A DNA stretch of 39,240 bases, taken from assembly GCA_947476295.1 (NCBI GenBank), contig CANJQC010000042.1, positions 1-39,240 of the forward strand. Direction: 5' to 3'. Origin of the DNA: Planctomycetaceae bacterium (GTDB taxonomy: Bacteria > Planctomycetota > Planctomycetia > Planctomycetales > Planctomycetaceae). Positions 1,272 to 23,305 of the stretch are shown here, piece by piece. Position numbers and translations under genes: made by a program. Position 1 is the first letter of the stretch, and each line of letters begins with the position of its first letter. Below the pieces are notes generated by a model, which ran no database searches, was not told where the DNA came from, and was given only the letters and a program-made list of their open reading frames with translations.

Positions 1272-1349
1272 TAACTTTTTCGCTCGTACGGAATTTAGCT
1301 GAGCCATCGGTGGTTTTCCTGCCCATAGATAGTGACTGCCCGCTTCATT

Positions 1350-2426: not shown

Positions 2427-2498
2427 AAAGCCACAAAACCATGTTTCGGTGTCCTGCTGTTGAAGCATCGTGACAACCTGATTTCCGGAGGCGAGGAC

Positions 2499-6163: not shown

Positions 6164-6203
6164 CAGTTCTGGGATACACCACACGAGAAGGACATAGGCT
6201 GAC

Positions 6204-7430: not shown

Positions 7431-7786
7431 TAGCGTGTCGCAACCGGAATGGTCAGTGCGAAGCACAAAAGCGGAAGGGCAGGAGCCACGCCCTCCCCAA
7501 ATGAGCCATTAGGCAAGGCCCACACCGGCGGCTGCCGCCATTCCGCTCCCGGACCATGATTTGCATCTGGGAATTCCGGATATTACGACTGCGCAGGGTT
7601 TTCTGACGCTTCATGGACCCGAGGGCCTTTTTTTGGGGTGTAGTCTTCCCCGATGTCTCCCATAATACCAAGCTCGGAAAATAACGGCGTACTATGTGAA
7701 GCAAGCGAGTCCTGCAGTGACCACTGCGAAGCGAACCATTTGTACGCCTTTCGTCCACGTCAGATGTCGCTCAGAAAAACGCATTC
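7431..7786. other. Gap upstream of the lipid cluster
   Basis: No gene is supported in these 356 bases. There is a small GC hairpin (GGCGGCTGCCGCC, about 7529-7541). A GAGGGCC followed by seven T residues near 7620-7633 gives a weak terminator-like feature. The promoter of the lipid cluster should lie here, but no convincing -35/-10 pair was found. Confidence 0.4.
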
Positions 7787-9358
7787 ATGGATACTCCTGC
7801 AAGACACGATCGCCCATTCGTTCTGCTGACGGGCGGAACTGGACTCGTTGGCGGGCTGGTGCTTGCGCAGTTGATGCGAAATGAGATTCCTGTCGCCCTG
7901 GTGGTGCGGGGGAATCGGCGGCAGTTGGCGGTCGAAAGGGTTGACATCCTGATGCGGCGGCTGGAGGAGCGATTTGGACGGCTCTTTGTACGACCTGTTG
8001 TCCTGGAAGGTGACATGTGCCAGCCGGGATTGGGGCTGTCGGATGCTGATCGACGCTGGATCGCGGCGAATTGCGGCAGCGTGATTCATTCCGCCGCAAA
8101 CCTGCTCTTTCGTCCAGCAAGCGAGCATCCGGACAATGAACCCTATAGAACTAACGTGGAGGGAACTCGGTATCTGCTGGAAGTGATGATCTCGGCACAG
8201 ATCACGGAATGGCACTATGTCTCAACAGCGTACATCGCTGGGTTGCGAAGTGGGATGATTTTGGAGCAGGAATCGAACGTTGGACAACAGTTCGGCAATG
8301 ACTACGAGCGCAGCAAGACACTTGCCGAACAAATGTTAACGCAATCCACTGCGATACGGTCACTCACAATCTATCGCCCTTCGATTGTGATCGATCTGCA
8401 TCCGACGACCAGTATGCGTTCCGATCAGACGATCAACAGCGCGTTTGTCATGTTTCAAACGCTGAGCCAGCGGTTTGGATTGCCGGAACGCGGCGAATGG
8501 TTTAGAAGATTGGGCTTCGGTGGCGAAGAACGCAAGAACATTGTGACGGTGGACTGGGTGGCCACGATGATCGCTCAGATTTATCGCCGACCCGCATTGC
8601 ATGGTTCAACCTATCATTTGACAAGTCCGAACGGAACGTCTGCTTCACTTCTGGAAGACGGCTTTCGAGCGGCTGTGCAGAACAGCGGTGCAAAGCTTCC
8701 ACCGCGACGTGCGGAAGCGATGGCATTGATCGACGAGCACGCGGCACCTTTTGTGGCGGCGTTCAAGCCATACTTCAGGGATGACCCAAAGTTCGATCGC
8801 ACAAATACGATACGTGCAATCGACGTGTGCGGCGCATCAGACCTGCCTGAACTGACGGTTGAGCACCTGCAGGATTTTTGTATGCGGCAAACGAAGCCAA
8901 CTGGTCCTTCGGCTGCAGCGAAAGTAGAGTTCTCGGCTTGGAATCAGTTTGTTAACAGTGTGGAACGACGCTCGGTATCATCAACTCATGAAGCAGAGCA
9001 TCGCGGTACATTCATAGGCCTCGAATTATCAGGCCCATGCGGCGGGCAGTGGCATGTTGAACAAGCGGCGGCTGGCATTTTGCTGCATCGCTCAGCGACA
9101 TCGCTCGCCGCGGTTCGCTGGATCACGACCGTTGCTGCGATGAATGAACTCATTGAAAATCGACTTTCCGTCAGGAACGCTCTTGAAGAAGGACTCCTCA
9201 GTCTGGAAGTCGATCAAACCAGCGATTATACAGGTTTTCAGCTCACCAGTTCGCAGGCTGAAAAGTTCATCAACCAATTAGAAAAGCTGACCGCAGAGAT
9301 TCAGCGTCACAATCCTGACTTTCACGTTCGGAAGTCGGAGGTGGCTCATGTCGGTTGA
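7787..9358 (+). CDS. Thioester reductase (NAD_binding_4) with extra C-terminal domain
   Basis: This 523-residue protein has an N-terminal extended SDR of the thioester-reductase type. The nucleotide loop TGGTGLVG is at residues 15-22, and the catalytic pair is in NDYERSK (Tyr173, Lys177). Such domains (HetM, carboxylic acid reductases, NRPS R domains) release ACP-bound acyl chains as aldehydes or alcohols using NADPH. Here it would offload the product of the adjacent megasynthase, which has no thioesterase. Residues about 400-523 are not part of the reductase. The pattern SGPCGGQWHVEQAAAG followed by a helical ENRLSVRNALEEG segment resembles an SCP-2-like lipid-binding domain (low certainty). 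The stop overlaps the next ATG by 11 bases, implying translational coupling. An in-frame repeat (8989-9013) lies at the domain junction. Confidence 0.82.
   Translation: MDTPARHDRPFVLLTGGTGLVGGLVLAQLMRNEIPVALVVRGNRRQLAVERVDILMRRLEERFGRLFVRPVVLEGDMCQPGLGLSDADRRWIAANCGSVIHSAANLLFRPASEHPDNEPYRTNVEGTRYLLEVMISAQITEWHYVSTAYIAGLRSGMILEQESNVGQQFGNDYERSKTLAEQMLTQSTAIRSLTIYRPSIVIDLHPTTSMRSDQTINSAFVMFQTLSQRFGLPERGEWFRRLGFGGEERKNIVTVDWVATMIAQIYRRPALHGSTYHLTSPNGTSASLLEDGFRAAVQNSGAKLPPRRAEAMALIDEHAAPFVAAFKPYFRDDPKFDRTNTIRAIDVCGASDLPELTVEHLQDFCMRQTKPTGPSAAAKVEFSAWNQFVNSVERRSVSSTHEAEHRGTFIGLELSGPCGGQWHVEQAAAGILLHRSATSLAAVRWITTVAAMNELIENRLSVRNALEEGLLSLEVDQTSDYTGFQLTSSQAEKFINQLEKLTAEIQRHNPDFHVRKSEVAHVG
8989..9013 (+). 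repeat. In-frame short repeat, copy 1 (EAEHRGTF)
   Basis: This 25-base segment inside the thioester reductase gene resembles segments at 11168-11192 and 14102-14126 in the megasynthase gene. All three are in the same reading frame, giving EAEHRGTF, DAEHRGTL and DTERRGAL. Similarity between this copy and the 11168 copy extends upstream, where both read RRS followed by a Ser/Thr-rich stretch. All lie in inter-domain linkers. Confidence 0.6.
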
Positions 9359-12300
9359 TTCGAATTCCCCGATCGTGATCGTGGGTATGGCCTGTCGAGT
9401 TCCCGGTGCTGACAGCGTGGATGAATTTGCCGAACTGCTGTTCAGCGCCCGCACGGGATACAGTGAGTTGCCAGAGGATCGCTGTGATCGATCGTTGTAT
9501 TTTGATTCGCATAAAGGGAAAGCCGGAAAATCTTACACAACGCTGGGTGGCACAGTTCCCGAACGACCGCTTGATCGTAACCTTTGCCCGCTGCCAGAAG
9601 AGTTCGAACGCCTGTTCGATACGGCTCATGTACAATTTGCAGAAGTTGCGGCAACCGCATGGCAGAATGCCGATCTCCGTCCGCAGGACAGCCGCCTCAA
9701 AAGAACGGGAGTTTACGTCGGTCATTCCGGCGGTACAAAATCCGGCGGCGGTCTGAGTCTCGGGACTCAGATCGAAGAAGCGTTGTCGTTCATCGATGAC
9801 ATCGAATCATTTCGACAACTGCCAGCAGAAATCCGCCGCGAGATCGTCGCAGAAGTCGCCCAGGCGGTTCGACGTGATCGACCGTCGCGCCGACCCGGTG
9901 CATTGCCGAGTTTTCACGCTTATCAGGCTGCGTCGCTGTCGGCGAGAATTCTCGGACTGACGGGGCCTCGCGCGGTGATCGACGCTGCGTGCGCATCGTC
10001 ACTGGTGGCTTTGGCACAGGCAATTCTGGCGATCAAAGCGGGCCGTATCGACAGTGCAGTCGTTGGCGGAGCGACATATAATAACATCGACAATTTGATT
10101 TTGTTTTCGCACTCCCAGGCGTGCACCGCGACAGACTCACGACCCTTTGATAACAACGCCAGCGGGCTGGTGAGTTCCGAAGGTTATGTTGCTGTCGTCA
10201 TTATGACGCAGGAAATGGCCATCAGGCACGATCTGCCGATACTCGGTGTAATTCGTGGCGTCGGCATGGCGTCCGATGGCAACGGTCGCAGCTTGTGGGC
10301 TCCGCGAATGGAAGGCCAGGTGCTTGCCCTGCAGCGAGCGTACGGCGACGCTGCACCGCTGGACATTGATTACATTGAAGCACATGCAACCAGTACTCAG
10401 TTGGGTGATGCGACAGAACTGGAAACGCTTCGGCGGTTGGCACAGAATCCGCAGGCGCAATTGGGACGGCATCAGTTGTTGCTGGGCAGCGTCAAATCAA
10501 ACATCGGTCATACGCTGGAAGCAGCCGGACTGGTTGGGCTGGTTAAAGTCCTCATCGCGATGCAGCGACGACAGATTCCTCCTTCACTGCGCTACGAGCA
10601 GCCGAACCGTAACTACGATTGGACGACAGCTCCCGTGCGAGTTGTGTCCTGCACGGAATCGTGGCCCGAGCACTCTCTGCATTCAAGACCGCGTCGCGCG
10701 GCTGTGAGCGCGTTTGGAATCGGCGGGCTGAATGCACATGTTGTGGTGGAAGAATTCAGCGGCGGTGTCTATTCGCCCCCGAAGTCGGGGGCGAAGCTGG
10801 CTGGCAAGCCGGATGAGGGGGATTTTGAGCCCATCGCGATCGTTGGTCGCGGCATCATCGTGGCGGGTGCGAAGAACCTGGAGGAATTCAGGTCCATCCT
10901 CAATTCGAACTCTTCGGCACTCAGCGACGCCCCGGAAAATCGCTGGCGCAAGCGTGCCGGAGTCGCTGCAGGCAGCGCTGCGGAAACGCATCGCACGCCG
11001 CATTGTCACGGTGGATTTATCACGGACTTCAGCTTTGATGGAGGCCGGTATGCGATCCCACCAAAGCAGGTGCAGCAGGCCAATCCGGTTCAGTTGATGC
11101 TGATTGATGCGGTGGCTCAGGCCCTGGCGGATGTTAATGTCCTCCGACGGTCTCCGTCGGGTACTCGCGATGCAGAACATCGCGGCACATTGAGTGACTT
11201 TCCGGTCGATCGTCAGCGAGTTGGCGTCGTGATCGGTACGGTCTTTGGCGGCGAATTTGGCGACCAGCTTCAGGTCGGTATGCGATTGCCGGAAATTTGC
11301 GAACAGATGTCGGCCGCCATGCAGCGACGGGGTTTGACGGATCAGTTGACACAGCAGGTCACTACCGAGTTCCGTCAGGTCGTCCTTAAGCACCGTCCCG
11401 CACTACTGGATGAAACCGGCAGCTTTACAGCCAGCACGCTGGCATCACGAGTTGCAAAAGCGTTTGACCTGATGGGCGGTGCGTGTGCTTTGGACAGTGA
11501 CGACACCTCCGGATTGTCCGCGATTGCGGTAGCGGCAGATCAGTTGCGTTCGGGAACCTGCGACATGATCGTCTGCGGGTCGGCACAGCGTTCGATGAGT
11601 CTGTCGGCTTTCGAGGCGCTGGACATGAATGGTCAACTGGTACGATCGGGCCTACCAGAAGATGTTCCAGATGACTGCAGCCGGATTCTTCCGGGTGAAG
11701 GCGTTGTGGCATTGATGCTGTGCCGACTGTCCGATGCCAGACGGCTGGACCTTCCGATCCACGGAATCCTGGGTGATGTTGTTCAACTTTGTGAATCTGC
11801 GGGACGGCCTTCAATGGCCTTTGAAGAGAATGCGACGGGCTGCGATGGTGATGCGGTACAGGTACTGAATGCCGCAGATGCAAAAATTGTTCGCCAAGTC
11901 GGCTACCTTGCCGGAGCCCACTCGCTGGTCCGCATCACGGCGGAAACGCTTGCGGCTCAGCAGGAGCATCACACTTCCGAGCCAGTGACATCCATCAGGA
12001 TTGCCGCGCGGACGGCAGACGGTATCGTGCTGCACACTTCGCTTTCGATTCCGACTGCAGCGCCTGGCATCGAAACTCAGGTTCCACCGACTCCACTGAT
12101 TCAACAGCGAGTTTCATTACCATTGAGTATGCAGGTGTCTCCCCAAATGTCGACTGCCACAACAGCCATCGAGGGTCCATTACGAAGCGTTCGGTTTGCG
12201 GCCACATCCAGTGCTTCGCTGCTGCAATTACTCAAAAATGCCAGTACTCGTGTAAATCAAATTGGTATTGATAATCGCGTGATTCGTGAGACTGAGGCTA

Positions 12301-15300
12301 CGGCATCTGCATCTGCATCGTTCGAATATACTTCCGACGACATTTTTCGCGCGACGATTCTGGTATCCTCAATCGATCAACTGCAACAACGTCTGACGGC
12401 GGCTGTCAAAGCCGCCGAAGCTGGAAAATTTCGTACGCTGCTGGATCGTGAACGTGTAATCCTGTGGCAGACTCAGGAACAAACACCGCGCGTCGCGTGG
12501 CTCTTTCCCGGTCAGGGATCACACTATCCTGAAACGCCGGCAGTGTTTTCCGCCAGCGAAGTTGCGAGACGCACTCTAACGGAGACAGATGACCTCTACA
12601 CAGCCAGCAATCTGCCTCGATTGAGCTCAGCGTTCGACAACACAGCGATCAAACCGGGTGTCGATGTGTGGTGGGCCCAGGCATGGGTACTGGGCGTGTC
12701 GGCAGCCTTGATTGAAACCCTGAAAGCCGAAGGTCTGCGTCCGGATGCCGTGCTGGGGCATAGTTTTGGTGAGTTTACGGCTTCGCTGGCAGCAGACGTC
12801 ACAACGTTACCGCAGTCGATCGAGCTGGCAAAACATCGAGCCAACGCAGTGATGTCACATATGCGTGTCCCCGGCGGACTATTGTCAATTCGCGCTGCGA
12901 TGCATGAAGTGGATGCGATTCTGAAGTCTGCCGGGCTGGCTGTGTATGTGACGCATCTCAATTCGACAAAGCAAACTGTGATCGCCGGAAGTCGAGAAGG
13001 CATCGTATCAGCGAAAGCACTTCTGGACAGGCATGGCATCGCGTCGATGTCTGTTTCGGTGCCCGCACCGTTCCATACGCCACTGATGATGGAAGCAGAA
13101 ATTGCGTTTGAACGTATGTCAGCCAGCGTTCCAATGCGGCCTCCGGTGTGCGGATTTTTGTCAGCCACCTGCGTGCAGTATCTGGCCGAACCCTCCAGCA
13201 TTCGCAGTAGTCTTGTGCGTCAGTTGACTCAGCCGGTGATGTATATGCCATCGATTCAGCGGATGCTGGGCGAAGGCTTTCGTGTATTCCTTGAAGTCGG
13301 GCCAAATGACGTGCTCACACGTATGAATCGCGACATCGTGGATTCTCAGGCGTTGTGCATAAGTCTGGATGTTCCCGGTCAGCCGTTTGCAGAACGCATG
13401 CAGTTGGTTCATGCTGTACTGGAATGTGTTGCCAACGTTTCCAGCGTGCCGCGCCGTGCCGTGTCATCGAACACGCCGCCGATGATTGAAGCGATTGGCC
13501 ACACTGGGAGTAATACGGTTCTCGCTGGTCAAAGTGACACGGTCTTCGACGTGACGCGATCGCGGCGCACAGGTCGTAAATCGGCACCTCAGCAGGACGA
13601 GTTCGGCTCACAGGATCGAAGCTGGGATCTGCCGGCGAATGAGAACGACAGACCGGCGGACTCTGTACCGCAAAGATTTGCAGATTCCATTTCGACAGTC
13701 CAGCCGCTGACATCAACGACGGCGTCAGCCACTTCCGCAGTTTCCAATACGCAACTTCGAAGTTTCGTGCTGGATCTGGTCGTCGAGCTGACGGGTTACG
13801 CTCCGGACGTTGTGGACTTCGACGCAGATCTGGAGGCCCATCTTGGGATAGACAGTATCAAGAAAGCTCAAATTCTTGGCGAACTCGGCGTGTGGCTGGG
13901 AATGACCGTGCGCCCCGATGGATTACGATTTGATTCCGTCCGCACACTTGACGACGCTATTCGAACGGTGCAGAAACTAGCGGAGGAGCAGGATTCTGCG
14001 GCGAGCCGGGATAGGTTAGCCCCCAGCCCTCAGCACCTCTCAACACCGCTGGTTCAATTTGCACCAGCCGCAACAGTTCAGCAAAATGGCCGTGAAGTCT
14101 ACGACACGGAACGCCGCGGCGCGTTGCCTCCGAACGCTCAACTGGATGCCCTTTTGATCGACTATGTTATCGATCAAACCGGCTATACCCCTGACATTGT
14201 CGATCTGGACGCGGATCTGGAAGCCGATCTGGGACTGGACAGTATCAAACTGGCGCAGTTGATTGGTCAGATGCGTGAACAGTTCAATCTGGAATCATTG
14301 ACGCTGGAATCGATTAGTCAAAAACGATTCCGCACGCTGCGCGAGATTCGTGAGTTTCTGGTGCAACAGGCGGGCGGGCCATTACAGAATTCAGTGAGCC
14401 TAGCGGCGTCAGCCCCCGGACTGCTGGCTGCTGCGGGACAAATCAGTGCCTCCGGACCAGTCGCAGGTGAGCCTGTCCGGGAACTGACACTGCCCGGCTC
14501 ACTAGGAGGTTTTGAGACAGTTCGCGGTATGGAACCCGTGAGTGAAATTACACCGGAATGGTCACAGTGGTTCTATCCGAACAATGTTGCACCAGCGTCT
14601 GTAAATGCTGCGATGCAGGCAGGCATTGAACGAGGTCGAAAGCATCAAACGCAGGTCCGCGCGGCTCTTCGCTCTCTTGTGACTCAACCTGTGGCACAGT
14701 TTGTTAAACGCGACTGGAGTTCCGTAGAGGCAGCGCACATTTCAGGCATCGCCGTCGGTGCGGGTGTGGCTGAATCATCCGTGCAATTTGCTGTGGCTGT
14801 GGTGCGCGATCGTTTGCATCCGGCAACATTGGACGTTGTGGACGCGCCGGTGAAGTCAGTCGCTCGCACAGAGCAGCTTGACGTTCCTGTCCTTTCAGCT
14901 GTGTCACAGGAAACCCAGCGATTTGCTCTGCGAGTGGTCCCGGCTCCGCGCCGCGCGGGCATGCCGCTTATGCCGCTTAATCCGGAACTGCACGGAGCAG
15001 CGTTGATCCTCGGAGCGAATGCGCTGGCCGAATCGCTGGCTGAGCGTATTCGTCGACTGGGCCAGAAAGCGATCGTACTGAGCACCTCCGTTCCGATCGC
15101 ACAGCTTGAGCAGACACTCGCCGATTTGTGGAAGCACACGGCGACCCCGCATTTGTTTCTGACGATGGCGTTTGATTCCGAATCTACAAGAAACGTGACA
15201 CAGGAAGACTGGAAACACCGCCGACCGGCGGCTTTGGAGGTACCATTTCGCATCTGCCAATTGTGGATGCAGCGGACGATTGATGCGAATCAGATGGAAA

Positions 15301-17402
15301 ATGCCAGCGTAGTCGCAGTGACCCAACTGGGCGGCGATTTCGGTTTCAGCGGTCGGCAGGTGCGTTCCATCGAAGCCATCGGCGGACTGGTCAAAGCGAT
15401 GCTGATCGAAGCTTGGATGCGGGGCTTTCGCACGACGCCGATGAAGGTGATCGATCTAGCATCGGACATGCCGCCCGATGTTTCCACCAGCGGCATTTTG
15501 CAGGAACTGGCTGTTCCGTCGTATGACATGGAGATCGCCTTCCGAGGCTCACGCAGCGCCGAACGTCATTGTGTACAGGCAGTGGCGGCGCCGTTGAATG
15601 ATTCTGTTGCAGCCACAAGCAGGGAAGCGAGGCCCCGCATCACGCGCGGCGGCACATGGATTGTTTCCGGCGGCGGGCGCGGCATCACAGCGGTGATCGC
15701 GATGACACTCGCAAAGAAATATGACCTGAAACTGCATTTGCTGGGCACAGCGCGTGTTCCACAGCTCAGCGAAGACTTTGTGCGCCAGGTCGCTGCAGAT
15801 CGCAGCGGCGTTCGAAATGCTGTTATGCAGGACGCATCAGCCCGCAGGGTCAGCCCAGTTGAAGCGTGGCGAAATACCGAGAAAGCAATCGAGATCGATG
15901 CAACTCTGCGGGACTGCCAACAGCAGAAAATCACCGCGACGTATCACTGCTGCGATGTATCGAACTTTGCCGAAGTGGAATCAGTCATTCGCTCAATTCG
16001 TCAACAGTCGGATCCGATCTGCGGCGTGATCCATGGTGCCGGTGCCGGTCAGGACGCGCGGTTTGATCGCAAGCGACCCGACAAAGTGGAAAAATGTCTG
16101 CGTGCCAAGATCGACGGATCATTCGCGCTGATGCAGGCGACCAATTCCGATCCGCTGGACTGGTTCGTGACATTTGGTTCGATCAGCGGGCGTTTCGGCG
16201 CAAATGGTCACACAGATTATTCACTGGCCAACGACATGATGGCCAAGATTGTTGATCGCTATCGCAGTCAGCGGCCTGAAGTGCGCAGTCTGACCTTCCA
16301 CTGGCACGCCTGGGGCGATATCGGCATGGCGACGAAGCCGGAGGCGAAACTGGCTCTGGAAATGATTGATATGGAGTTCATGCCGGCTCGGGACGGCATT
16401 GCTCACTTTATGCGTGAACTGGAATTCGGCGGTGATGAGCCCGAAGTCTTGATTACCGATGAGAGTTATTTCCGCAAATTCTTCCCGGCGGAACGGCTGT
16501 CGCTGACGTCCAGCGCGTCAAATTCGCTGCCGCTTCCGTTGCTGTCCTCCACAGTGACTCAGCATGAAGACGGCATTTGTTCCAGCGTAGTAACTTTGAA
16601 TCCTGTGTCCGATCGATTCTTGTCACAGCACCGCGTTCAAAACCGTCCAACGTTGCCGTTTGTGGTCGCGTTGGAATTGATGGCGGAAGCCGTCCGAGTC
16701 AGAACCGGGCAGTTCAGCGTTGGCGTCTGCACTCAGGCGCTGGCAAAGCAGGCGATTCGATTTGCAACAGACGACCCACTGGCGGTGACTGTGCAGACTC
16801 GTCTGACCGGCAATGGAATCATTGAATGCCGATTACTGGCTGATGTGCGTCGCCGTGATGGTCGTATGGTGGAAGAAGATCGTGAATATTTCCTCGCGAT
16901 GTTTGATGTGAGTGGTCAAACGTCAGTGTCCGCTCCGGAGATGCCGGGCGTCAGACATATTGACAATGCACTTCGCTGGCAGCGAGTCGAGTATGGAACT
17001 TCGGACGGGTTGATCTACCACGGGCCGGAGTTGCAGGAGTTGCGTGAAGTCGCAGATGATGGCCAGTCGATTATTGGTCGGATTGCGGCGTCCGCTCCTG
17101 TCCAGTTGTTTGGAGGTTCCCGCGCCCGAGGCTTCACGGTGCCTTGCGCGACGATGGATGCATGTCTGTACGCAGTCGGCTACGCTGCATGGCATCGATA
17201 TCAAAAACCAAGTCTTCCCGTGCAGTTCGGGGTGATCGAATTTGGCCGCTTACCAGACCCTGGGGAACCATGCGTGGTCAGCATTCAGCAGAAGCAGCTT
17301 CTGGAATCCGGCGCTTGCTGGGACTTTCAGTTAGATGGTCATAATGGAGACCGATTGCTGACAGTGAGTGGTTATCAAATCGGATGGTTAAAAAATCACT
17401 GA
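9348..17402 (+). CDS. PUFA-synthase-like multidomain polyketide/lipid synthase (KS-CLF-AT-ACP-ACP-KR-DH)
   Basis: This 2684-residue iterative synthase builds an acyl chain on its own carrier domains. KS1 (about 5-430) has Cys215 in DAACASS, His346 in EAHATST and His388 in NIGHT. A second KS-like domain (about 492-880) has Asp719 where the nucleophilic Cys should be (DSDDTSG) and no recognisable catalytic histidines, like a chain-length factor. AT (about 1048-1365) has Ser1139 in GHSFGE and His1243. Two ACPs follow, with Ser1503 (LGIDSIKKAQI) and Ser1632 (LGLDSIKLAQL), the PfaA-type carrier motif. KR (structural half about 1870-2090, catalytic half about 2100-2400) has SGGGRGIT, Ser2278 and Tyr2291. 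A single DH (about 2410-2684) has His2428 and Asp2604. There is no ER and no thioesterase. GGAGGTG lies just upstream of the ATG. Several linkers contain interspersed repeats. Confidence 0.93.
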   Translation: MSVDSNSPIVIVGMACRVPGADSVDEFAELLFSARTGYSELPEDRCDRSLYFDSHKGKAGKSYTTLGGTVPERPLDRNLCPLPEEFERLFDTAHVQFAEVAATAWQNADLRPQDSRLKRTGVYVGHSGGTKSGGGLSLGTQIEEALSFIDDIESFRQLPAEIRREIVAEVAQAVRRDRPSRRPGALPSFHAYQAASLSARILGLTGPRAVIDAACASSLVALAQAILAIKAGRIDSAVVGGATYNNIDNLILFSHSQACTATDSRPFDNNASGLVSSEGYVAVVIMTQEMAIRHDLPILGVIRGVGMASDGNGRSLWAPRMEGQVLALQRAYGDAAPLDIDYIEAHATSTQLGDATELETLRRLAQNPQAQLGRHQLLLGSVKSNIGHTLEAAGLVGLVKVLIAMQRRQIPPSLRYEQPNRNYDWTTAPVRVVSCTESWPEHSLHSRPRRAAVSAFGIGGLNAHVVVEEFSGGVYSPPKSGAKLAGKPDEGDFEPIAIVGRGIIVAGAKNLEEFRSILNSNSSALSDAPENRWRKRAGVAAGSAAETHRTPHCHGGFITDFSFDGGRYAIPPKQVQQANPVQLMLIDAVAQALADVNVLRRSPSGTRDAEHRGTLSDFPVDRQRVGVVIGTVFGGEFGDQLQVGMRLPEICEQMSAAMQRRGLTDQLTQQVTTEFRQVVLKHRPALLDETGSFTASTLASRVAKAFDLMGGACALDSDDTSGLSAIAVAADQLRSGTCDMIVCGSAQRSMSLSAFEALDMNGQLVRSGLPEDVPDDCSRILPGEGVVALMLCRLSDARRLDLPIHGILGDVVQLCESAGRPSMAFEENATGCDGDAVQVLNAADAKIVRQVGYLAGAHSLVRITAETLAAQQEHHTSEPVTSIRIAARTADGIVLHTSLSIPTAAPGIETQVPPTPLIQQRVSLPLSMQVSPQMSTATTAIEGPLRSVRFAATSSASLLQLLKNASTRVNQIGIDNRVIRETEATASASASFEYTSDDIFRATILVSSIDQLQQRLTAAVKAAEAGKFRTLLDRERVILWQTQEQTPRVAWLFPGQGSHYPETPAVFSASEVARRTLTETDDLYTASNLPRLSSAFDNTAIKPGVDVWWAQAWVLGVSAALIETLKAEGLRPDAVLGHSFGEFTASLAADVTTLPQSIELAKHRANAVMSHMRVPGGLLSIRAAMHEVDAILKSAGLAVYVTHLNSTKQTVIAGSREGIVSAKALLDRHGIASMSVSVPAPFHTPLMMEAEIAFERMSASVPMRPPVCGFLSATCVQYLAEPSSIRSSLVRQLTQPVMYMPSIQRMLGEGFRVFLEVGPNDVLTRMNRDIVDSQALCISLDVPGQPFAERMQLVHAVLECVANVSSVPRRAVSSNTPPMIEAIGHTGSNTVLAGQSDTVFDVTRSRRTGRKSAPQQDEFGSQDRSWDLPANENDRPADSVPQRFADSISTVQPLTSTTASATSAVSNTQLRSFVLDLVVELTGYAPDVVDFDADLEAHLGIDSIKKAQILGELGVWLGMTVRPDGLRFDSVRTLDDAIRTVQKLAEEQDSAASRDRLAPSPQHLSTPLVQFAPAATVQQNGREVYDTERRGALPPNAQLDALLIDYVIDQTGYTPDIVDLDADLEADLGLDSIKLAQLIGQMREQFNLESLTLESISQKRFRTLREIREFLVQQAGGPLQNSVSLAASAPGLLAAAGQISASGPVAGEPVRELTLPGSLGGFETVRGMEPVSEITPEWSQWFYPNNVAPASVNAAMQAGIERGRKHQTQVRAALRSLVTQPVAQFVKRDWSSVEAAHISGIAVGAGVAESSVQFAVAVVRDRLHPATLDVVDAPVKSVARTEQLDVPVLSAVSQETQRFALRVVPAPRRAGMPLMPLNPELHGAALILGANALAESLAERIRRLGQKAIVLSTSVPIAQLEQTLADLWKHTATPHLFLTMAFDSESTRNVTQEDWKHRRPAALEVPFRICQLWMQRTIDANQMENASVVAVTQLGGDFGFSGRQVRSIEAIGGLVKAMLIEAWMRGFRTTPMKVIDLASDMPPDVSTSGILQELAVPSYDMEIAFRGSRSAERHCVQAVAAPLNDSVAATSREARPRITRGGTWIVSGGGRGITAVIAMTLAKKYDLKLHLLGTARVPQLSEDFVRQVAADRSGVRNAVMQDASARRVSPVEAWRNTEKAIEIDATLRDCQQQKITATYHCCDVSNFAEVESVIRSIRQQSDPICGVIHGAGAGQDARFDRKRPDKVEKCLRAKIDGSFALMQATNSDPLDWFVTFGSISGRFGANGHTDYSLANDMMAKIVDRYRSQRPEVRSLTFHWHAWGDIGMATKPEAKLALEMIDMEFMPARDGIAHFMRELEFGGDEPEVLITDESYFRKFFPAERLSLTSSASNSLPLPLLSSTVTQHEDGICSSVVTLNPVSDRFLSQHRVQNRPTLPFVVALELMAEAVRVRTGQFSVGVCTQALAKQAIRFATDDPLAVTVQTRLTGNGIIECRLLADVRRRDGRMVEEDREYFLAMFDVSGQTSVSAPEMPGVRHIDNALRWQRVEYGTSDGLIYHGPELQELREVADDGQSIIGRIAASAPVQLFGGSRARGFTVPCATMDACLYAVGYAAWHRYQKPSLPVQFGVIEFGRLPDPGEPCVVSIQQKQLLESGACWDFQLDGHNGDRLLTVSGYQIGWLKNH
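10772..10795. repeat. Perfect in-frame palindrome in the KS1-CLF linker
   Basis: Two 10-base arms, TTCGCCCCCG and CGGGGGCGAA, flank AAGT. The element is inside the coding sequence of the megasynthase, in the linker between KS1 and the second KS, and is read through as part of SPPKSGAKLAG. The position in a tolerant linker suggests a repeat inserted in frame. Confidence 0.7.
11168..11192 (+). repeat. In-frame short repeat, copy 2 (DAEHRGTL)
   Basis: This copy matches the segment at 8989-9013 in 18-20 of 25 bases and in the same frame. It sits in a non-conserved insert of the cysteine-less KS domain, directly after RRSPSGTR. Confidence 0.6.
14001..14027 (+). repeat. Linker repeat with GAGCC...TTAGCCCCC core, copy 1
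   Basis: This segment reads GAGCCGGGATAGGTTAGCCC and continues CCC. It resembles the segment at 14394-14420 and lies in the linker after ACP1. From memory, repeats of the form GAGCC-(about 10)-AGCCCCCGG are common in planctomycete genomes; this needs a database count. Confidence 0.5.
14102..14126 (+). repeat. In-frame short repeat, copy 3 (DTERRGAL)
   Basis: This most diverged copy shares about 18 of 25 bases with the copy at 11168. It is in the linker between ACP1 and ACP2, in the same frame. Confidence 0.5.
14394..14420 (+). repeat. Linker repeat with GAGCC...TCAGCCCCC core, copy 2
   Basis: This segment begins GTGAGCCTAGCGGCGTCAGC and continues CCCCGG. It lies in the linker directly after ACP2 and is read as VSLAASAPG. 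It shares the GAGCC and AGCCCCC ends and the spacing with the segment at 14001-14027. Confidence 0.5.
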
Positions 17403-17409
17403 ATCAACG

Positions 17410-18624
17410 ATGTACCAATCTTCCACAGCATTTGAAGCACCGCTGACACCTCGAATGTTCTTCGCGGCAGACGTGCATGCGCTGGAAAGCCAGTGCGTGT
17501 TTGAGAAGACCTGGCAAATGGTTGGACTGGCATCCTCGATCAGCAAACCGGGACAGTATCTTTCGACCGAGATCGGCAGTGTTCCTGTAATTGTCCGGAA
17601 CTTTGACGGGGAGATGGTGGCACTTAGGAATGTGTGCGCGCACCGACATTGTTCGCTGGTGACGTCGCCGCTGGGGCAGAACGAAAAACTCAAGTGTCCC
17701 TTTCATGGCTGGGAGTACGGAGCGGACGGCAGGACGCGCAGGATTCCAGCAGCAAAAAACTTTCCGGACTTCAATCGCGAACACTACAAGCTGGCATCAT
17801 TTCCGCTGGAAATCTGCGGAGATCTGTTGTTCGTGCGTGTTGCCAGTGACGGGCCGTCGTTGCGGGTATGGCTCGGGGACCTGTACGATCGCATTGAAGA
17901 ATGGACGTCTTTTCCAACATCAAAGCTGGCGGTGAGTCGGCTTCTTCCGTTACCAGCGAACTGGAAAATCCCGGTCGAGGCCGCGTTGGAGAGTTATCAC
18001 ATACCGGAGGTCCACGCGCAGACATTTGGCGAAGATCCCGGCGAATCGAAGAGTGATCATGCGTTCGCGAAGTATACGACGTCGTTCTTCACATCGTTCA
18101 ACACGCCGCGTCTCATCGACAAGCTCCTGAAAGTCTATGAACAGTTCATTCTCAAAATTCTCGGCGCGTCGTTTAACGCAAAGTACGAACATCATCATAT
18201 CTTTCCAAATCTGTTGATATCCAATACCAGTTCGTTAACGCTCGTGCAGACCGTGAGACCGCTCACCGCCGAAACAGCCGTCAGCAATGTCTGGCAGTAC
18301 GGACGACTGTCGGTACGGAGCAATCCGATTTCAAAGCTGACCGCGTTTCTGTGGGGACGCTTTACGGGCTGGTTGTCGTATCAGATCCTCAAAGAAGACA
18401 TCAGCATTTTCCCCAGCGTACAGCGCGGTGCACGGGCTGCAACGGATCGCGCGATCCTTGGCCGCTGTGAAGAACGGCTGTATGCGTTTGAAAGGTTTTT
18501 GCATGACCAGATTCTGGCACAGAATGGATGCGACATTATGGCGGAAGACGGCATAAAAACAGGCGCGTGCGAGGCCGCATCGATGTGTTCGAAAACGCCC
18601 TGTGCGGTGGAGGTCACAGAGTGA
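17410..18624 (+). CDS. Rieske non-heme iron oxygenase, alpha-subunit type
   Basis: This 404-residue protein has the two parts of a Rieske oxygenase. The [2Fe-2S] ligands are Cys76-x-His78 and Cys96-x2-His99 (CAHRHC and CPFHGWEYG). The mononuclear iron site has His197 and His202 (ESYHIPEVH) with Asp330 (KEDISIF) as the likely third ligand. Such enzymes hydroxylate or dihydroxylate a substrate using electrons from a separate reductase, which is not visible here. The start is 7 bases after the megasynthase stop and the stop overlaps the next GTG, so it belongs to the cluster operon. It probably tailors the polyketide or lipid chain; the substrate is unknown. Confidence 0.88.
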   Translation: MYQSSTAFEAPLTPRMFFAADVHALESQCVFEKTWQMVGLASSISKPGQYLSTEIGSVPVIVRNFDGEMVALRNVCAHRHCSLVTSPLGQNEKLKCPFHGWEYGADGRTRRIPAAKNFPDFNREHYKLASFPLEICGDLLFVRVASDGPSLRVWLGDLYDRIEEWTSFPTSKLAVSRLLPLPANWKIPVEAALESYHIPEVHAQTFGEDPGESKSDHAFAKYTTSFFTSFNTPRLIDKLLKVYEQFILKILGASFNAKYEHHHIFPNLLISNTSSLTLVQTVRPLTAETAVSNVWQYGRLSVRSNPISKLTAFLWGRFTGWLSYQILKEDISIFPSVQRGARAATDRAILGRCEERLYAFERFLHDQILAQNGCDIMAEDGIKTGACEAASMCSKTPCAVEVTE

Positions 18625-19385
18625 TCAGCTTAAACGGCAAAGTCGCATTGGTGACCGGTGCTTCCCGTGGCATCGGGCGTGCCTGCGTAGAATCGCTTGC
18701 GGCTTGTGGCGCGGCAGTGGTCGTCAATTTCCTGAAATCACAGGATGCCGCGAAGGATCTGGTGAATCTGATTCAAAGCCGTGGGGGTCGAGCGATCGCG
18801 GTGCGGGCCGATGTATCAGAACGTGACGATGTGCAGGCCATGATCGATGTGGTCGGCGAACAGTACGGACGGCTGGACATCATTGTGAGCAACGCAGCGG
18901 CCGGCGGATTTCGACCATTGACTCAGGTGACTCCTGCGGGCTTCGATTCCATCCTGCGCATGAACGCCGCCCCGTTGATATGGCTGACTCAGGCAGCACT
19001 TCCCCTGTTCAAAGCGTCGCAGGACATTTCTCGGGTCATTGCGATCTCCAGTCACGGGTCAATGCGTGGTATCGCGAACTACGGACTTATCGGCACTTCC
19101 AAGGCCGCGTTAGAAAGTCTGGTACGGCATCTGGCGTTTGAACTGGGGCGATCGGGTGTAAACTTCAATGCCGTCATGCCCGGGATTGTCGAAACGGATG
19201 CAATCAAGACGCTGCCCGGATCAGCCGGAATGCTGGCGTCTGTGCGGGAACAGATTCTTGTACGCGATCGAATGCTGCAACCCGCCGATGTTGCTGGGAC
19301 GGTACTGTTTCTGTCCAGTCCGTTGAGCGAACTCATTCAGGGGCAGGTGATTGTAGTGGATGGCGGAATCAGTATTCGGGTATAG
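18621..19385 (+). CDS. FabL-like SDR, probable trans-acting enoyl-ACP reductase
   Basis: This 254-residue SDR has TGASRGIG at residues 12-19 and SNAAAGGFRP in the place of the NAG motif. The active-site segment reads NYGLIGTSKAALE, with Tyr154 and Lys161 six residues apart. FabG-type ketoreductases have Tyr-x3-Lys, where this protein has Ile. Tyr-x6-Lys is the enoyl-reductase spacing of FabI and FabL, and the surrounding sequence (SKAALE, then VDGG near the C-terminus) resembles FabL of Bacillus. The megasynthase has no ER domain, so this protein may reduce enoyl intermediates in trans, the role PfaD fills in PUFA synthases. The GTG start overlaps the Rieske stop by four bases (GTGA); an upstream in-frame start at 18528 would lie inside the Rieske gene. 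Confidence 0.82.
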   Translation: MISLNGKVALVTGASRGIGRACVESLAACGAAVVVNFLKSQDAAKDLVNLIQSRGGRAIAVRADVSERDDVQAMIDVVGEQYGRLDIIVSNAAAGGFRPLTQVTPAGFDSILRMNAAPLIWLTQAALPLFKASQDISRVIAISSHGSMRGIANYGLIGTSKAALESLVRHLAFELGRSGVNFNAVMPGIVETDAIKTLPGSAGMLASVREQILVRDRMLQPADVAGTVLFLSSPLSELIQGQVIVVDGGISIRV

Positions 19386-19388
19386 TCT

Positions 19389-19398
19389 GACAATTGTC
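19389..19398. promoter_or_regulatory. Perfect palindrome GACAATTGTC, copy 1
   Basis: A 10-base perfect palindrome lies in the 33-base gap before the acyltransferase ATG. The same 10-mer occurs at 21846-21855 before the P450 gene. Both are followed closely by GG. A shared protein-binding site is possible but unproven. Confidence 0.35.
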
Positions 19399-19418
19399 GG
19401 TGGCAACGAGGTTTTATC

Positions 19419-20888
19419 ATGGTTGTTCCAGCACCAACATTCGATGCTCAGAAGCGCTCTGAAACGAACGTCGTACGTGCGGCGGAAACACCGGTGATGG
19501 AACCGTTACCGCTGACCCCGCTGGAGCAGTTCCTGCTGCAGTGTGCTGGGCCGCAGTCCCCGATGGTGATTCGGGTCGTGTTACGGCTCACCGGTGACTG
19601 CCAGCCGGACCTGTATGTGCAGACGCTGCAGCGCGCGATTGCGCGACATCCGCTGCTCAGTTGCCGAATTCAGAAGATCAATCGACAGTGGTGCTGGATG
19701 TCGGGCACACCGGAACCGGTTGTCATCAGTCGCCGATCCGGGTCCATTTTTGAACTCGAAAGCGGTACGGGAAGCAAGTTCATTGACCTGACACAGTCCG
19801 CCGGACTGCATACTTCAATTGCGGTTCTGGATGACGGCGTCAAGGTCTATTTGGACGTCCATCACGCAGCGTCCGATGGAAACGGCCTGCGACAGGTAGT
19901 AATCGAGTGGTTTCATCTGTATCACTGCGAAGTGACCGGCACACCTTCGAAACTTCCGGTGATCGACCCGGATCGTCTGTTGCAAAGACACCGGTTCCCG
20001 CAGCCCGCATCGATTGCTCCGATCAGCATGAAGCAAGCGTTGCGAAACTTCTGGGCGACGATTCGAGGCCGCACGTCGCGTTGGGCGGCGGTCGGGAGCG
20101 GTGATCGCAACGCCCTGCAGCCGACATCCAGCCACTGCGTCGAAATCATTCTGTCGGATGAACAGGGTGATCAGCTTCGTGAGCGAATGGCGGCATGGGA
20201 AGTGAAGCTCAATGAACTGGTGATGGTCTGCACCATGAGCACATTTGCGGAGCTGGCACCTCCCGGCAGGATGGATCATCATGTCATGGTCCTGAATCCG
20301 GTCGATATGCGGATGCCATCCGACCGCACGTTGCCGGCGACCAATCGCTTTGGCTTCGCTTTCATGCGCCGACCGCGTGCAGAGTGTTTAAATCCCGTCG
20401 CAATCCTGCGTGGAATTCATGACGAAATGACCTACGTGCGATCGAATTACGTCGGAGTGGAATTCATCAAAGGGCTGGCGACCGCGTCGAAGATTCCTGG
20501 CGGAATCGATCTGTTTCGCAGGCTGGGCCTTTTCATTCCTTCGATTCAATGGACCAGTCTGGGAGATGTTTCGCGGGGGAGTAAACGATTAATGCCGTGG
20601 AAGGACGGGATGCCGATTTCCGGAAACCTGCAACTGGCGACAGTGACCGGATTTGCTCCCTGCGTGGATGACGTTCCCGTGAGTATCGCGACGTGTGAAA
20701 CGAACCGGAAAATTACGCTCACAGTGCGATCATCGCCACGATTCCTGACGATGTACGAGACGCAGAAATTTGCCGCGATGCTTGTTCAGAGCCTTTGCAC
20801 GTTTGAGCTGCCGGACGATACCTGTGACGTGAAGCGAGCCAGCGCAGCACTGACAAGTGGAGCAACCGACGAAAATGAATCTGGCTGA
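19419..20888 (+). CDS. HHxxxDG acyltransferase (condensation/WES-like)
   Basis: This 489-residue protein belongs to the chloramphenicol-acetyltransferase-like superfamily that includes NRPS condensation domains, PapA-type acyltransferases and wax ester synthases. The opening LTPLEQFLLQ resembles the start of condensation domains, and the catalytic motif HHAASDG is at residues 148-154. Such enzymes transfer an acyl group from CoA or a carrier protein to an alcohol or amine. In this cluster it could esterify an alcohol made by the thioester reductase or a hydroxyl added by the oxygenases. A GAGG site lies 8 bases before the ATG. Its end overlaps the next gene by 14 bases. The acceptor is unknown. 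Confidence 0.75.
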   Translation: MVVPAPTFDAQKRSETNVVRAAETPVMEPLPLTPLEQFLLQCAGPQSPMVIRVVLRLTGDCQPDLYVQTLQRAIARHPLLSCRIQKINRQWCWMSGTPEPVVISRRSGSIFELESGTGSKFIDLTQSAGLHTSIAVLDDGVKVYLDVHHAASDGNGLRQVVIEWFHLYHCEVTGTPSKLPVIDPDRLLQRHRFPQPASIAPISMKQALRNFWATIRGRTSRWAAVGSGDRNALQPTSSHCVEIILSDEQGDQLRERMAAWEVKLNELVMVCTMSTFAELAPPGRMDHHVMVLNPVDMRMPSDRTLPATNRFGFAFMRRPRAECLNPVAILRGIHDEMTYVRSNYVGVEFIKGLATASKIPGGIDLFRRLGLFIPSIQWTSLGDVSRGSKRLMPWKDGMPISGNLQLATVTGFAPCVDDVPVSIATCETNRKITLTVRSSPRFLTMYETQKFAAMLVQSLCTFELPDDTCDVKRASAALTSGATDENESG

Positions 20889-21642
20889 TCCCGTTGAAGT
20901 GTTTCCAGATTGTCGGCTGTGGCTGGCGTACTTTGACGACGGATCAGGCGATTCTGTTTCAAGCCCGAAGAGCGCTCTTGCGGAAGCGAAATTGAGTGTT
21001 CGTGATCAGCTCCGATGGCAGCAGTATCGGCCTGCGACAAAGAAGCGACAGTTTCTCAATAGTCGTCGGGCCGTGCGGGCCGTGCTGCAACGGGAACTCG
21101 GTGACGACGCAGCCCACATTCAGTTTGATTCCGATTCGCAGGGATGTCCCATCCTGCTGTCTCAACAAGTCGGTCCCTGGCCTCAGATAAGTCTTTCACA
21201 TTCCGGCAACGCCGTGGCTATCGCGATTTCCATGAACGCATTCCCGATTGGTGTCGATATCGAAGTTGTCGAGCCGCTCCGAGCGGATGCCTTGCGGCTG
21301 ATTGCGTCACATCCGCAGGAGAGGGCCTGGTGCGATCGGGAAACAGGTCGCGAATCCGATGCGTTGGCAACTCTCTGGACGATCAAAGAGGCGGTCTGGA
21401 AAACGCTGCACTGTCGCGATGAGATTCCGATTTCCGAAATATCGATTGAATTTGATCGCGGAATTCTGACGCCCTGTGTGGCAAATTCGGCGTTCCAGGA
21501 CGCCAAATTTCGCACGCAGTTGTTTGTCTTCGAGTGTGAGGCTGTTGTTCCGGAGACAATTCGTCTCGCGGCGGGCGACACTCCATTACGCGGCTGCGTA
21601 ATGCAACGAGTGACCGAGCCACATCGTTACGATGCACCGTGA
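20875..21642 (+). CDS. Sfp-type 4'-phosphopantetheinyl transferase
   Basis: This 255-residue enzyme would attach phosphopantetheine from CoA to the ACP serines of the megasynthase. The hallmark motifs are present: ISLSHSGN, then GVDIEVV at residues 126-132 with the Mg-binding Asp and Glu, and WTIKEAVWK at 168-176. The length is typical of Sfp/HetI enzymes. The ATG at 20875 is inside the end of the acyltransferase gene (14-base overlap); a GTG at 20857 is an alternative. Coupled translation in the cluster strongly suggests it serves this pathway. Confidence 0.9.
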   Translation: MNLADPVEVFPDCRLWLAYFDDGSGDSVSSPKSALAEAKLSVRDQLRWQQYRPATKKRQFLNSRRAVRAVLQRELGDDAAHIQFDSDSQGCPILLSQQVGPWPQISLSHSGNAVAIAISMNAFPIGVDIEVVEPLRADALRLIASHPQERAWCDRETGRESDALATLWTIKEAVWKTLHCRDEIPISEISIEFDRGILTPCVANSAFQDAKFRTQLFVFECEAVVPETIRLAAGDTPLRGCVMQRVTEPHRYDAP

Positions 21643-21845
21643 GTCACCGCTGAATCGCTCTTCCCCCGCAAAGATGCCGCAGCCACTGCTCCGAATGGTC
21701 CGACGCCGGTGTCTCCTCCCAAGGTGCTTTTCCGAAGATTTTGCTCGCAACGGACAGACAGGCAATATAGGGTCTTTAGGTGATGGCCCGAACCGTGGTC
21801 AAACCCCTTGGCACCGGGAATTTGCCGACGAGTTGTAGGGATTGA

Positions 21846-21876
21846 GACAATTGTCAGGACGAAGCGACCTTCGTCC
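21846..21876. promoter_or_regulatory. GACAATTGTC palindrome plus hairpin before the P450 gene
   Basis: The palindrome GACAATTGTC (21846-21855) is followed immediately by a perfect 8-bp hairpin with arms GGACGAAG and CTTCGTCC around CGAC (21857-21876). It ends 31 bases before the P450 ATG and has no T-run, so it is not a terminator. It may be an operator or a leader structure. The full gap between the transferase and P450 genes is 265 bases, so the P450 gene may have its own promoter. Confidence 0.4.
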
Positions 21877-21907
21877 AGCCCCGACGCATCTCCCTAAGAG
21901 TTTGCTT

Positions 21908-23305
21908 ATGAGTTCGTTCGCGACGCTGAAGTCTCCCCCGGCACCCCGCAGCCATTGGCTTTGGGGCAATCCGGAAGTACTGGCCGACCCGCTTGCGTTC
22001 ATGCGAAAGATGGCTTCGGATTATGGAGGTATCGTGAGCCTGCGTTTACTGACGCACACGGCATGGATGGTGACTGACCCAGCGGCAATTGAGTCGGTGC
22101 TGATCAGGCAGGCAGATAAGTACCGCAAGCATTTTGCAGTGCGACTACTCCCGATTGCTCTGGGCAACGGGTTGTTGACGAGTGAAGGGGACTTCTATTC
22201 CCGCCAGCGTCGCTTAGCACAGCCGGCGTTTCAGCGTTCGCAGGTCTCCCAGTATTACTCGACATTTGTCAGCGCGACTCAGCGCATGCTGGACACATGG
22301 CAGGTTGGGGAAAGTCGAGATATTCTCCAGGAAATGCACACATTGACTCTTGGCACAGCATCAAAAACGTTGTTCGGAGTCGATGCAGAATTTCAGTCTG
22401 AATGCGTCCGCGCTGCGCTCCGAGTCGGCCAGGCAGAGTTTGTGCGGCGACTTCTCACAATCTTTCACTTTCCGATATGGGTGCCGACACGCTCCAATCG
22501 TCGACTCCGCCGCGCTACGCGGGACCTTGACGACATTATTTACGGCTTTATTCGGCAGCGGCGAGCCTCCGGCGAGCAGCGCGGCGATCTGCTTTCGATA
22601 CTGCTTCATGCTCGTGACGGAGTCGATCAGACAGGGATGACAGACAAGCAACTGCGGGATGAATGCCTCACAATTTTTCTGGCCGGTCAGGAGACGACGG
22701 CCTTGGCAATGTCGTGGTGCTGGTGGTTGCTGGCAGAACATCCGCACGTGGCAGACCGAATTTATGCGGAAGTTGATACCGTGTTTAACGGTCAGATCCC
22801 AACCATGGAAGGTCTGACTCGCCTGCAGGAGACTGAGCACGCTCTTCTCGAAGCGATGCGACTCTATCCCCCGATCCATGTGATCGGCCGTGAACCGCTG
22901 GTCGATACAGAGATTGCGGGTTTTCATTGCCCACGAGGGACAACGCTGTTGATGCCGGCATGGGCCGTACATCGGAACGAGCGGTATTTTAAGAACCCGG
23001 ACGCATTTCTTCCGGAACGATGGCGTGATGGCTTCGAAAAGCAACTCCCGAAGTGCGCCTATTTTCCATTCAGCGCGGGACCGCGCATCTGCCTGGGAAC
23101 GCATTTTGCGATGCTGCAAATGAAGCTTGTTATTGCAATGATCGCGCAGCGGTTTCAGTTCACACTGGCACCAGGGCAGAAGGTGACTCCAAACGTTCAA
23201 ATCACCCTTCAGCCATCTCCGGGCGTGCCGGCGATTGTCCGCTCCAGACAGTCGATCCATAATTCTGACTTCCGGGGCTCCCTTGCACACTCATCAACGG
23301 AGTGA
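21908..23305 (+). CDS. Cytochrome P450
   Basis: This 465-residue P450 has all core motifs: AGQETTA in the I-helix (259-265), ExxR (Glu315, Arg318 in EAMRLYPP) and the haem loop FSAGPRICLG with Cys395. There is no N-terminal membrane anchor and no fused reductase, so electrons must come from a separate ferredoxin system, not seen here. The style (PERW, then FPFSAGPRICLG, then FAMLQMKL) resembles fatty-acid-type P450s such as the CYP110/CYP102 clans. The ATG at 21908 is chosen because homology starts with PPAPRSHWLWGN. It probably hydroxylates the product of the lipid cluster. It ends 29 bases from the convergent ruvA. Confidence 0.93.
   Translation: MSSFATLKSPPAPRSHWLWGNPEVLADPLAFMRKMASDYGGIVSLRLLTHTAWMVTDPAAIESVLIRQADKYRKHFAVRLLPIALGNGLLTSEGDFYSRQRRLAQPAFQRSQVSQYYSTFVSATQRMLDTWQVGESRDILQEMHTLTLGTASKTLFGVDAEFQSECVRAALRVGQAEFVRRLLTIFHFPIWVPTRSNRRLRRATRDLDDIIYGFIRQRRASGEQRGDLLSILLHARDGVDQTGMTDKQLRDECLTIFLAGQETTALAMSWCWWLLAEHPHVADRIYAEVDTVFNGQIPTMEGLTRLQETEHALLEAMRLYPPIHVIGREPLVDTEIAGFHCPRGTTLLMPAWAVHRNERYFKNPDAFLPERWRDGFEKQLPKCAYFPFSAGPRICLGTHFAMLQMKLVIAMIAQRFQFTLAPGQKVTPNVQITLQPSPGVPAIVRSRQSIHNSDFRGSLAHSSTE

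Follow-up and report, generated by a model that had tools for sequence, protein, structure and literature searches.

What does the lipid-synthase operon on one planctomycete contig make, and what does its product do? The operon lies in a 39,240-nucleotide stretch from a Planctomycetaceae bacterium (GenBank assembly GCA_947476295.1, contig CANJQC010000042.1; here, the window), which is one whole contig (C42) of a 5.99-Mb assembly of 252 contigs. An earlier description made from the letters alone, here the sequence-only reading, saw at 7787-23305 a compact cluster resembling polyunsaturated fatty acid (PUFA) synthases, with reductive release and two oxygenases. We favor, with moderate confidence, a dedicated secondary-lipid synthase whose product would serve cell-surface polysaccharide, a system known here from its genes alone. 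The tie to polysaccharide comes from two genes upstream of that interval, one for a Wzy_C-type glycosyltransferase and one for a protein that we call g6204, which accompany the synthase from genome to genome. The genes concerned are as follows.

2460..3872, + strand: membrane glycosyltransferase of the Wzy_C (O-antigen ligase/polymerase) type (PF04932), with a DNxYxxxxLRFG motif; genome-level partner of the synthase
6204..7430, + strand: g6204, a predicted exported or anchored protein with no Pfam or NCBIfam match; genome-level partner of the synthase
7787..9358, + strand: thioester reductase (TR), NAD_binding_4 (PF07993, 126.5 bits), with GGTGLVG at 16 and YERSK at 173
9348..17402, + strand: iterative synthase of 2684 aa, comprising ketosynthase (KS, 1-473), chain-length factor (CLF, 487-825), acyltransferase (AT, 1051-1333), two acyl carrier proteins (ACP, S1503 and S1632), ketoreductase (KR, 2102-2323) and dehydratase (DH, about 2375-2684)
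17410..18624, + strand: Rieske non-heme iron oxygenase alpha subunit (PF00355 and PF00848)
18621..19385, + strand: FabL-like short-chain dehydrogenase/reductase (SDR), proposed trans enoyl reductase, with a Yx6K motif and FabL as best NCBIfam model
19419..20888, + strand: condensation-like or PapA5-like acyltransferase (AcT), with HHAASDG at 148
20857..21642, + strand: Sfp-type phosphopantetheinyl transferase (PPTase; PF01648, 41 bits), with GVDIE and WTIKEAVWK motifs

The last six genes (7787-21642) follow one another on the same strand at spacings of -11, 7, -4, 33 and -32 nt, the tight arrangement that one operon would show. A scan for promoters and terminators found sites no more numerous than in shuffled sequence. 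We set the SDR start at the GTG at 18621, the open reading frame (ORF) being listed from 18528, because homologs align from about residue 32. The ORFs, coordinates, 2684-residue protein and domains of the sequence-only reading all stand; its gene set wrongly included a cytochrome P450, considered below, and overlooked the upstream Wzy_C and g6204 genes.

Across 59 genomes, orthologs of the synthase occur in nine, the source genome included (G000, G004, G005, G006, G013, G015, G017, G019 and G023), with best scores of 6020 to 1065 bits; the next genome scores 755, and all 59 have some KS-type match. The g6204 gene is present in exactly the same nine genomes and in none of the other 50, a match with a chance of 8e-11 if the genomes were independent, which they are not. 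Window-type Wzy_C also occurs in exactly these nine, at 31-100% identity. The pattern is patchy even within one genus, where 7 of 18 genomes carry the synthase, g6204 and Wzy_C, and 11 carry none of them. AcT-like proteins match in 31 of the 59 genomes (at least 32% identity in seven of the nine synthase genomes, 27% in G023 and weak matches only in G015) and PPTase-like proteins in 28, so that both are less clean as genome-level markers than g6204 and Wzy_C.

A second sample was drawn from 41 named loci, a lower bound on the true number, found via alignment of five synthases and two short peptide patterns from the KR region. Twenty loci were picked mainly for long flanks, two of them being G019 and G023 again. 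Here 15 of 20 genomes have both g6204 and Wzy_C (the Wzy_C match in the genome of L071 is a fragment), and the other five, those of L088, L089, L092, L096 and L101, have neither. None of these five loci has AcT downstream of the synthase; in L096 and L101 it lies upstream on the opposite strand. Records titled Stieleria tagensis TO1_6, Rhodopirellula europaea 6C and Neorhodopirellula pilleata Pla100 hold the synthase and both partners.

The three components need not be neighbors. In G004, G005 and G015, each of three contigs carries one element, namely the synthase operon, a PPTase-g6204 gene pair or the Wzy_C gene, the last with a Bac_transf gene 4 to 14 kb away. G019 has the same PPTase-g6204 pair, on a contig that continues with Poly_export, Wzz and, at its end, the first part of a TR gene. 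Since one contig ends and the other begins inside the TR gene, the g6204 and synthase contigs of G019 are probably neighbors.

Searches of g6204 against Pfam, NCBIfam and PHROGs returned no family, and structural searches gave a best Foldseek E of 0.15 and a best VIA Z of 2.4, which does not by itself prove a new fold. Its predicted structure (predicted local distance difference test [pLDDT] score of 80) has an N-terminal helix at residues 4-27, from which export is suggested, and a beta-rich body. The Wzy_C protein matches PF04932 at 39.5 bits, above the gathering cut-off of 31.7. WaaL-type ligases carry a His in an HN motif of the periplasmic loop. The synthase-linked Wzy_C proteins instead have a DNx(Y/F) motif in 10 of 10 distinct copies that include the region, and HN was found only in a second Wzy_C-like protein of locus L036.

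That locus, from the same genus, shows polysaccharide genes gathered around the system. One stretch holds TR, g6204, Wzy_C, two sulfotransferases, the second Wzy_C-like protein (28.7 bits, below the cut-off), a WecG-type glycosyltransferase, a GT4 glycosyltransferase, Bac_transf, Poly_export and Wzz. Of the 15 loci flanked by 6 kb or more on each side, seven have Bac_transf, Wzz, Poly_export, Wzy_C or WecG within 10 kb, versus 2 of 40 control windows of 20 kb evenly spaced in seven related genomes (Fisher p 0.0008); this count is favored by profiles built from synthase-locus members, controls and loci are drawn from different genomes, and several of the seven are closely related to one another. 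When 20 genomes were scanned independently with Pfam, each had 2 to 9 Poly_export matches, and in five genomes one match falls inside the synthase locus (L075, L076, L077, L084 and L100). The window itself begins with two genes that are possible parts of a polysaccharide locus, tied to the synthase by position only.

48..1271, + strand: GT4-type glycosyltransferase (PF13579/PF00534)
1332..2303, + strand: NAD-dependent epimerase/dehydratase of the sugar-nucleotide type (PF01370, 207 bits)

On the opposite strand, the window also encodes a sulfotransferase (33937-35202, PF13469), and a 41% identical homolog directly follows the AcT gene in L027. The pair hints at a sulfated product or polysaccharide.

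The synthase is well conserved. Its counterparts in two genomes of the same genus share 67% identity with it across residues 5-2683, and for most named loci of more distant kin the best segment is 31-47% identical; such long conserved homologs argue that the ORF is not a chance reading. Pfam and NCBIfam annotation returned ketoacyl-synt twice, Acyl_transf_1, two PP-binding stretches, KR and PKS_DH_N, the last at 26.2 bits against a cut-off of 27, which bears out the KS-CLF-AT-ACP-ACP-KR-DH order that had been read in one protein. For the C-terminal 310 residues, the predicted structure (pLDDT 90.5) is a double hot-dog dehydratase whose best Foldseek match is 5bp3, a MAS-like DH (E 3e-16), identifying this region, at the level of the model, as a polyketide synthase (PKS) dehydratase.

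Catalytic residues were compared across 37 homologous synthase ORFs longer than 1500 aa, with duplicate loci dropped and counts taken over the rows with letters at each site. Invariant positions are Cys215, His346 and His388 of the KS, Ser1139, Arg1164 and His1243 of the AT, and Ser2278 of the KR, in which Tyr2291 and Lys2254 are each kept in 33 of 34 rows and Asn2295 in 29 of 34. The DH retains His2428 and Asp2604 in all 34 rows, and the ACP serines are retained in 32 of 35 (first) and 30 of 34 (second). The nucleophile column of the second KS holds Cys in 0 of 37 rows (D in 19, E in 12 and others in 6), with a Cys one column later in nine rows; the missing nucleophile fits a CLF role.

The genes around the synthase recur as well. 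A synthase ORF is present in 39 of the 41 named loci, 30 of which extend at least 4.5 kb downstream, and neighbors were counted within 6 kb on either side. TR is fused to the synthase, or encoded no more than 6 kb away, in all 19 loci in which this could be judged, ten of them with the fusion. Every synthase ORF extended by more than 150 aa at the N terminus (10 of 10) is a TR fusion, with 40-47% identity to the window TR; they come from nine planctomycete records and one Acidobacteria metagenome-assembled genome (MAG), and the contig of L074 starts inside TR. Three other proteins with long N termini (the Beijerinckia and Rhodobacteraceae reference PKSs and one FabF-like protein) have no TR match there. 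Fusion in homologs is the best evidence that TR acts on the chain of the synthase. It supports the reductive release claimed earlier. In the window, the TR and synthase genes overlap by 11 nt. TR is well above the cut-off of PF07993 and scores 96.7 bits against NCBIfam TIGR01746, whose cut-off is 213.35.

The SDR was found near 24 of the 30 synthases, an undercount by at least one, as an opposite-strand ORF hides the SDRs of L025/L083 and L034. Its best NCBIfam model is FabL (244.5 bits, under the equivalog cut-off of 328). A Tyr and a Lys separated by six residues form the FabL catalytic motif, and this spacing (YGLIGTSK in the window) is present in 33 of 34 SDR copies beside clade synthases, the remaining copy being truncated. 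The PfaD family (TIGR02814) has no match in 10 genomes, the source genome included, and matches in 3 of 14 control genomes. On these sequence grounds, the SDR is a candidate to take the place of PfaD and reduce the enoyl; reduction in trans had been proposed earlier. AcT, found near 25 of the 30 synthases, scores 29.2 bits against PF00668, just below the cut-off of 30.6, and 27.2 bits against the PapA5 family, far below 396; the HHxxxDG motif and the Sfp-type transferase noted earlier are both in place. The same profiles in the 40 control windows returned TR in three, SDR in two, Rieske in one, and AcT and PPTase in none. Set against these controls, the neighbor counts point to a conserved core of TR, synthase, SDR and AcT, with the Rieske gene in a majority.

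We evaluated the affiliation of the synthase with a phylogeny of 51 KS domains. References came from plasmid records and PDB 6riw ("ORF10"), which we take to be Moritella marina PfaC; HglE, HglC and Type R sequences are not among them. The Persicobacter PfaA and the Beijerinckia PKS tested above the PfaA cut-off, and other PfaA and PfaC labels follow similarity and architecture. Thirty-six KS rows form one clade (100/100), 35 from planctomycete records or window-related genomes and one from an Acidobacteriota MAG. The sister of this clade is the PfaC KS group (98/88), not PfaA, ArsA-type PKSs or SgcE. Forcing it to join PfaA costs 22.8 log-likelihood units (approximately unbiased test, p 0.0588), so the PfaA alternative is disfavored and not strictly rejected. 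The C-1027 PKS, presumably SgcE and the single enediyne sequence in the tree, falls outside the planctomycete clade, grouped with a Gloeothece PKS (100/100). The KS phylogeny proposed in the sequence-only reading thus places the window KS inside none of the PfaA, ArsA-type or SgcE groups. That reading took the domains to be ones normally split over PfaA and PfaC; they do sit in one protein, with a precedent in Type R, but the KS-CLF pair sides with PfaC in the tree, which leaves one active KS and probably no PfaA-type KS. Among the best 20-60 of more than 1200 matching plasmid records, we recognized no hgl or Type R sequence, and no record in the plasmid collection covers 80% of the synthase in one place.

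Could the synthase nonetheless make polyunsaturated fatty acids? Its best NCBIfam family is PfaA (TIGR02813), and its alignment with 6riw runs unbroken through the KS into the start of the CLF. The family score is 604.1 bits against a cut-off of 1010, whereas the Persicobacter PfaA scores 2170; there are two PP-binding stretches in place of the four to six tandem ACPs of Type A PUFA synthases; PfaD is absent from the 10 genomes searched; and release would fall to a TR. Membership among PUFA synthases is rejected on the score, the ACP count and the missing PfaD, and we consider a polyunsaturated product highly improbable. A free secreted or storage lipid, with the polysaccharide genes carried along as passengers of a genomic island or ecotype, is less easily dismissed, though still rather unlikely. 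Polysaccharide-assembly genes are lacking near 8 of the 15 fully flanked loci, which also counts against our own reading, and other genes can take the flanks, such as a mechanosensitive channel and Omp85 beside the synthase in L066 or MutL beside g6204 in L152. A passenger on one island fails to explain how g6204 and Wzy_C persist on other contigs, or why g6204 is missing from all 50 genomes that lack the synthase. Several further points weigh against a polysaccharide-serving lipid. The 59 genomes are related, so their co-occurrences are not independent events; the separate contigs of G004, G005 and G015 reduce the link there to co-occurrence alone; weaker Wzy_C matches exist in the synthase-less G055 and G058 (27-28%, E 1e-27 and 1e-35); and g6204 has no family or fold from which to assign a role. 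The Rieske gene stands near 18 of the 30 synthases and the PPTase gene near five.

The main rival is a product akin to heterocyst glycolipids, a TR-released long-chain polyol bearing one or a few sugars and forming a layer beneath a polysaccharide coat, so that the glycan would be an adjacent layer, not covalently joined. The hgl island offers an iterative CLF-containing synthase, a thioester reductase, a PPTase, a glycosyltransferase and an envelope lipid (excerpts of PMC8064123 and PMC11804610). In HglB, an ACP is combined with a thioester reductase domain (excerpt of PMC8064123), and the island, defined by homologs of at least 7 of 19 Anabaena genes, encodes CLF, KR, DH, enoyl reductase, TER and PPTase domains for a glycolipid that sits under a polysaccharide layer (excerpt of PMC11804610). 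The window has a TR, an SDR, a PPTase, a glycosyltransferase and a sugar epimerase, in keeping with such a product. As those excerpts describe it, HglB is an ACP-TER protein and the enzymes are spread over several genes, whereas the window type has its TR at the N terminus of the synthase or as a separate protein, with Wzy_C and g6204 as partners. That these two track the synthase across genomes is seemingly more than simple glycosyl transfer needs. On balance, we regard this alternative as somewhat unlikely.

Under the favored reading of a lipid made for surface polysaccharide, the steps below are ones that we infer from gene content, as are the length of the chain, the position oxidized and any covalent attachment of lipid to glycan. 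The PPTase would arm both ACPs, and the PfaC-type KS-CLF pair with the in-cis malonyl AT would lengthen the chain iteratively. The KR and DH would process each beta-keto group in cis while the FabL-like SDR, replacing PfaD, reduces the enoyl in trans. TR would free the chain as an aldehyde or alcohol, which the Rieske enzyme may hydroxylate in the lineages that have its gene. The HHxxxDG AcT would esterify either the chain, with a second acyl-ACP, or a sugar. The lipid would then be used with the Wzy_C glycosyltransferase and g6204 for building or anchoring surface polysaccharide. The best reading of the product from these sequences is a reduced, hydroxylated long-chain lipid.

One specific form of this proposal is a tentative possibility: the PKS-built long-chain alcohol from a TR-coupled PfaC-type synthase may be a membrane anchor to which the DN-type Wzy_C joins polysaccharide, with g6204 as a new envelope partner. 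If true, a PKS-alcohol anchor would replace a lipid A or phospholipid anchor in these planctomycetes, for example in adhesion or a holdfast. Planctomycete envelopes are unusual, and we know of no assigned product for most planctomycete PKS clusters. A widespread cluster type now has a defined list of genes; those of the two partners fall outside 7787-23305 and, in several genomes, are not neighbors of the synthase. Lipid making would be tied to surface polysaccharide, a tie that the sequence-only reading had not seen. Its Pfa-related secondary-lipid synthase, reductive release, trans reduction and PPTase are supported, with the type of KS corrected and the P450 step dropped. The list of secondary-lipid synthases gains a PfaC-side, single-KS architecture with a candidate trans enoyl reductase.

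How far is this architecture new? PfaC (6riw) likewise has a KS followed directly by a dead KS, the CLF, and is its sister in the KS tree. In contrast to PfaC, the window KS-CLF is fused to AT-ACP2-KR-DH, has mostly an acidic residue for the CLF Cys, lacks a PfaA KS and PfaD, and would release its chain through TR. Type R of Shulse and Allen 2011 (PMC3098273) is a one-protein synthase followed by a PPTase gene, as in the window, and includes Acidobacteria. The available part of that paper gives its order as KS-MAT-CLF-ACP(3-6)-KR and names no DH or TR; by this description, the window, with KS-CLF-AT-ACP2-KR-DH and added TR, SDR, AcT and Rieske genes, differs in order. The same part describes Pfa-like clusters of Types I and J in planctomycetes (Gemmata and Planctopirus), with PfaD and KS-MAT-ACP3-KR for Type J and no mention for either of TR, Rieske or a KS-CLF-AT chain. 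Zeamine and fabclavine PUFA-like synthases are, according to an excerpt of PMC13291983, chain builders with a recruited TR. They add an aminotransferase and join a nonribosomal peptide synthetase-PKS, and the synthase of the window has no gene of this sort beside it. An antiSMASH "hglE-KS" cluster, which may or may not be of the window type, is reported in one Pirellulaceae strain (excerpt of PMC13190842). Compact Pfa-like synthases (Type R) and TR-coupled ones (zeamines) are thus already known. Among the literature matches listed, no title or start of an abstract describes this cluster type or its polysaccharide link. As far as our literature search shows, the TR-KS-CLF-AT-ACP2-KR-DH architecture, the PfaC-side KS, the set with a trans FabL-like reductase and the tie to Wzy_C and g6204 are new.

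Downstream of the operon lies the second oxygenase of the sequence-only reading.

21842..23305, + strand: cytochrome P450, a neighbor and not a member of the system, after a 199-nt gap

Relatives of this gene were found within 6 kb of none of the 30 homologous synthases, and nine related genomes gave no match above 34% identity. We reject the P450 as a pathway member on the gap, its absence from homologous loci and the lack of a close match; it is special to this genome among those examined. Of the two oxygenases proposed, the Rieske enzyme remains as the one recurrent oxygenase gene, itself at 18 of 30 synthases.

Related synthases also appear in other settings. Two more members of the clade (2702 and 1712 aa) lie in the source genome at 1315-9423 and 12452-17590 of L030 (G000:C63), together with a multi-ACP protein, a PPTase-like gene and an ABC-2 exporter; the locus profiles find no polysaccharide gene in this stretch. 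L031 (102-5614) and L034 (421-6074) represent a distant synthase type of 3600 aa accompanied by PPTase, Rieske, SDR, TR and a class III aminotransferase, and L031 has an MMPL-type transporter in addition. By analogy, this type could make an aminated, zeamine-like chain. The fused TR-synthase of L089 (8513-16726) is in an Acidobacteria-labeled MAG without g6204 and Wzy_C, a possible case of horizontal transfer or misbinning. L065 and L094 come from records titled Candidatus Kuenenia stuttgartiensis; the contig of L065 is also found in the same-genus genome G005, which makes the name of that record doubtful. Eight loci have a B12-binding radical SAM protein with DUF4070 (6747-8468 in L067), or a relative of it, near the synthase, with the gene divergent and upstream in seven and downstream in L086.

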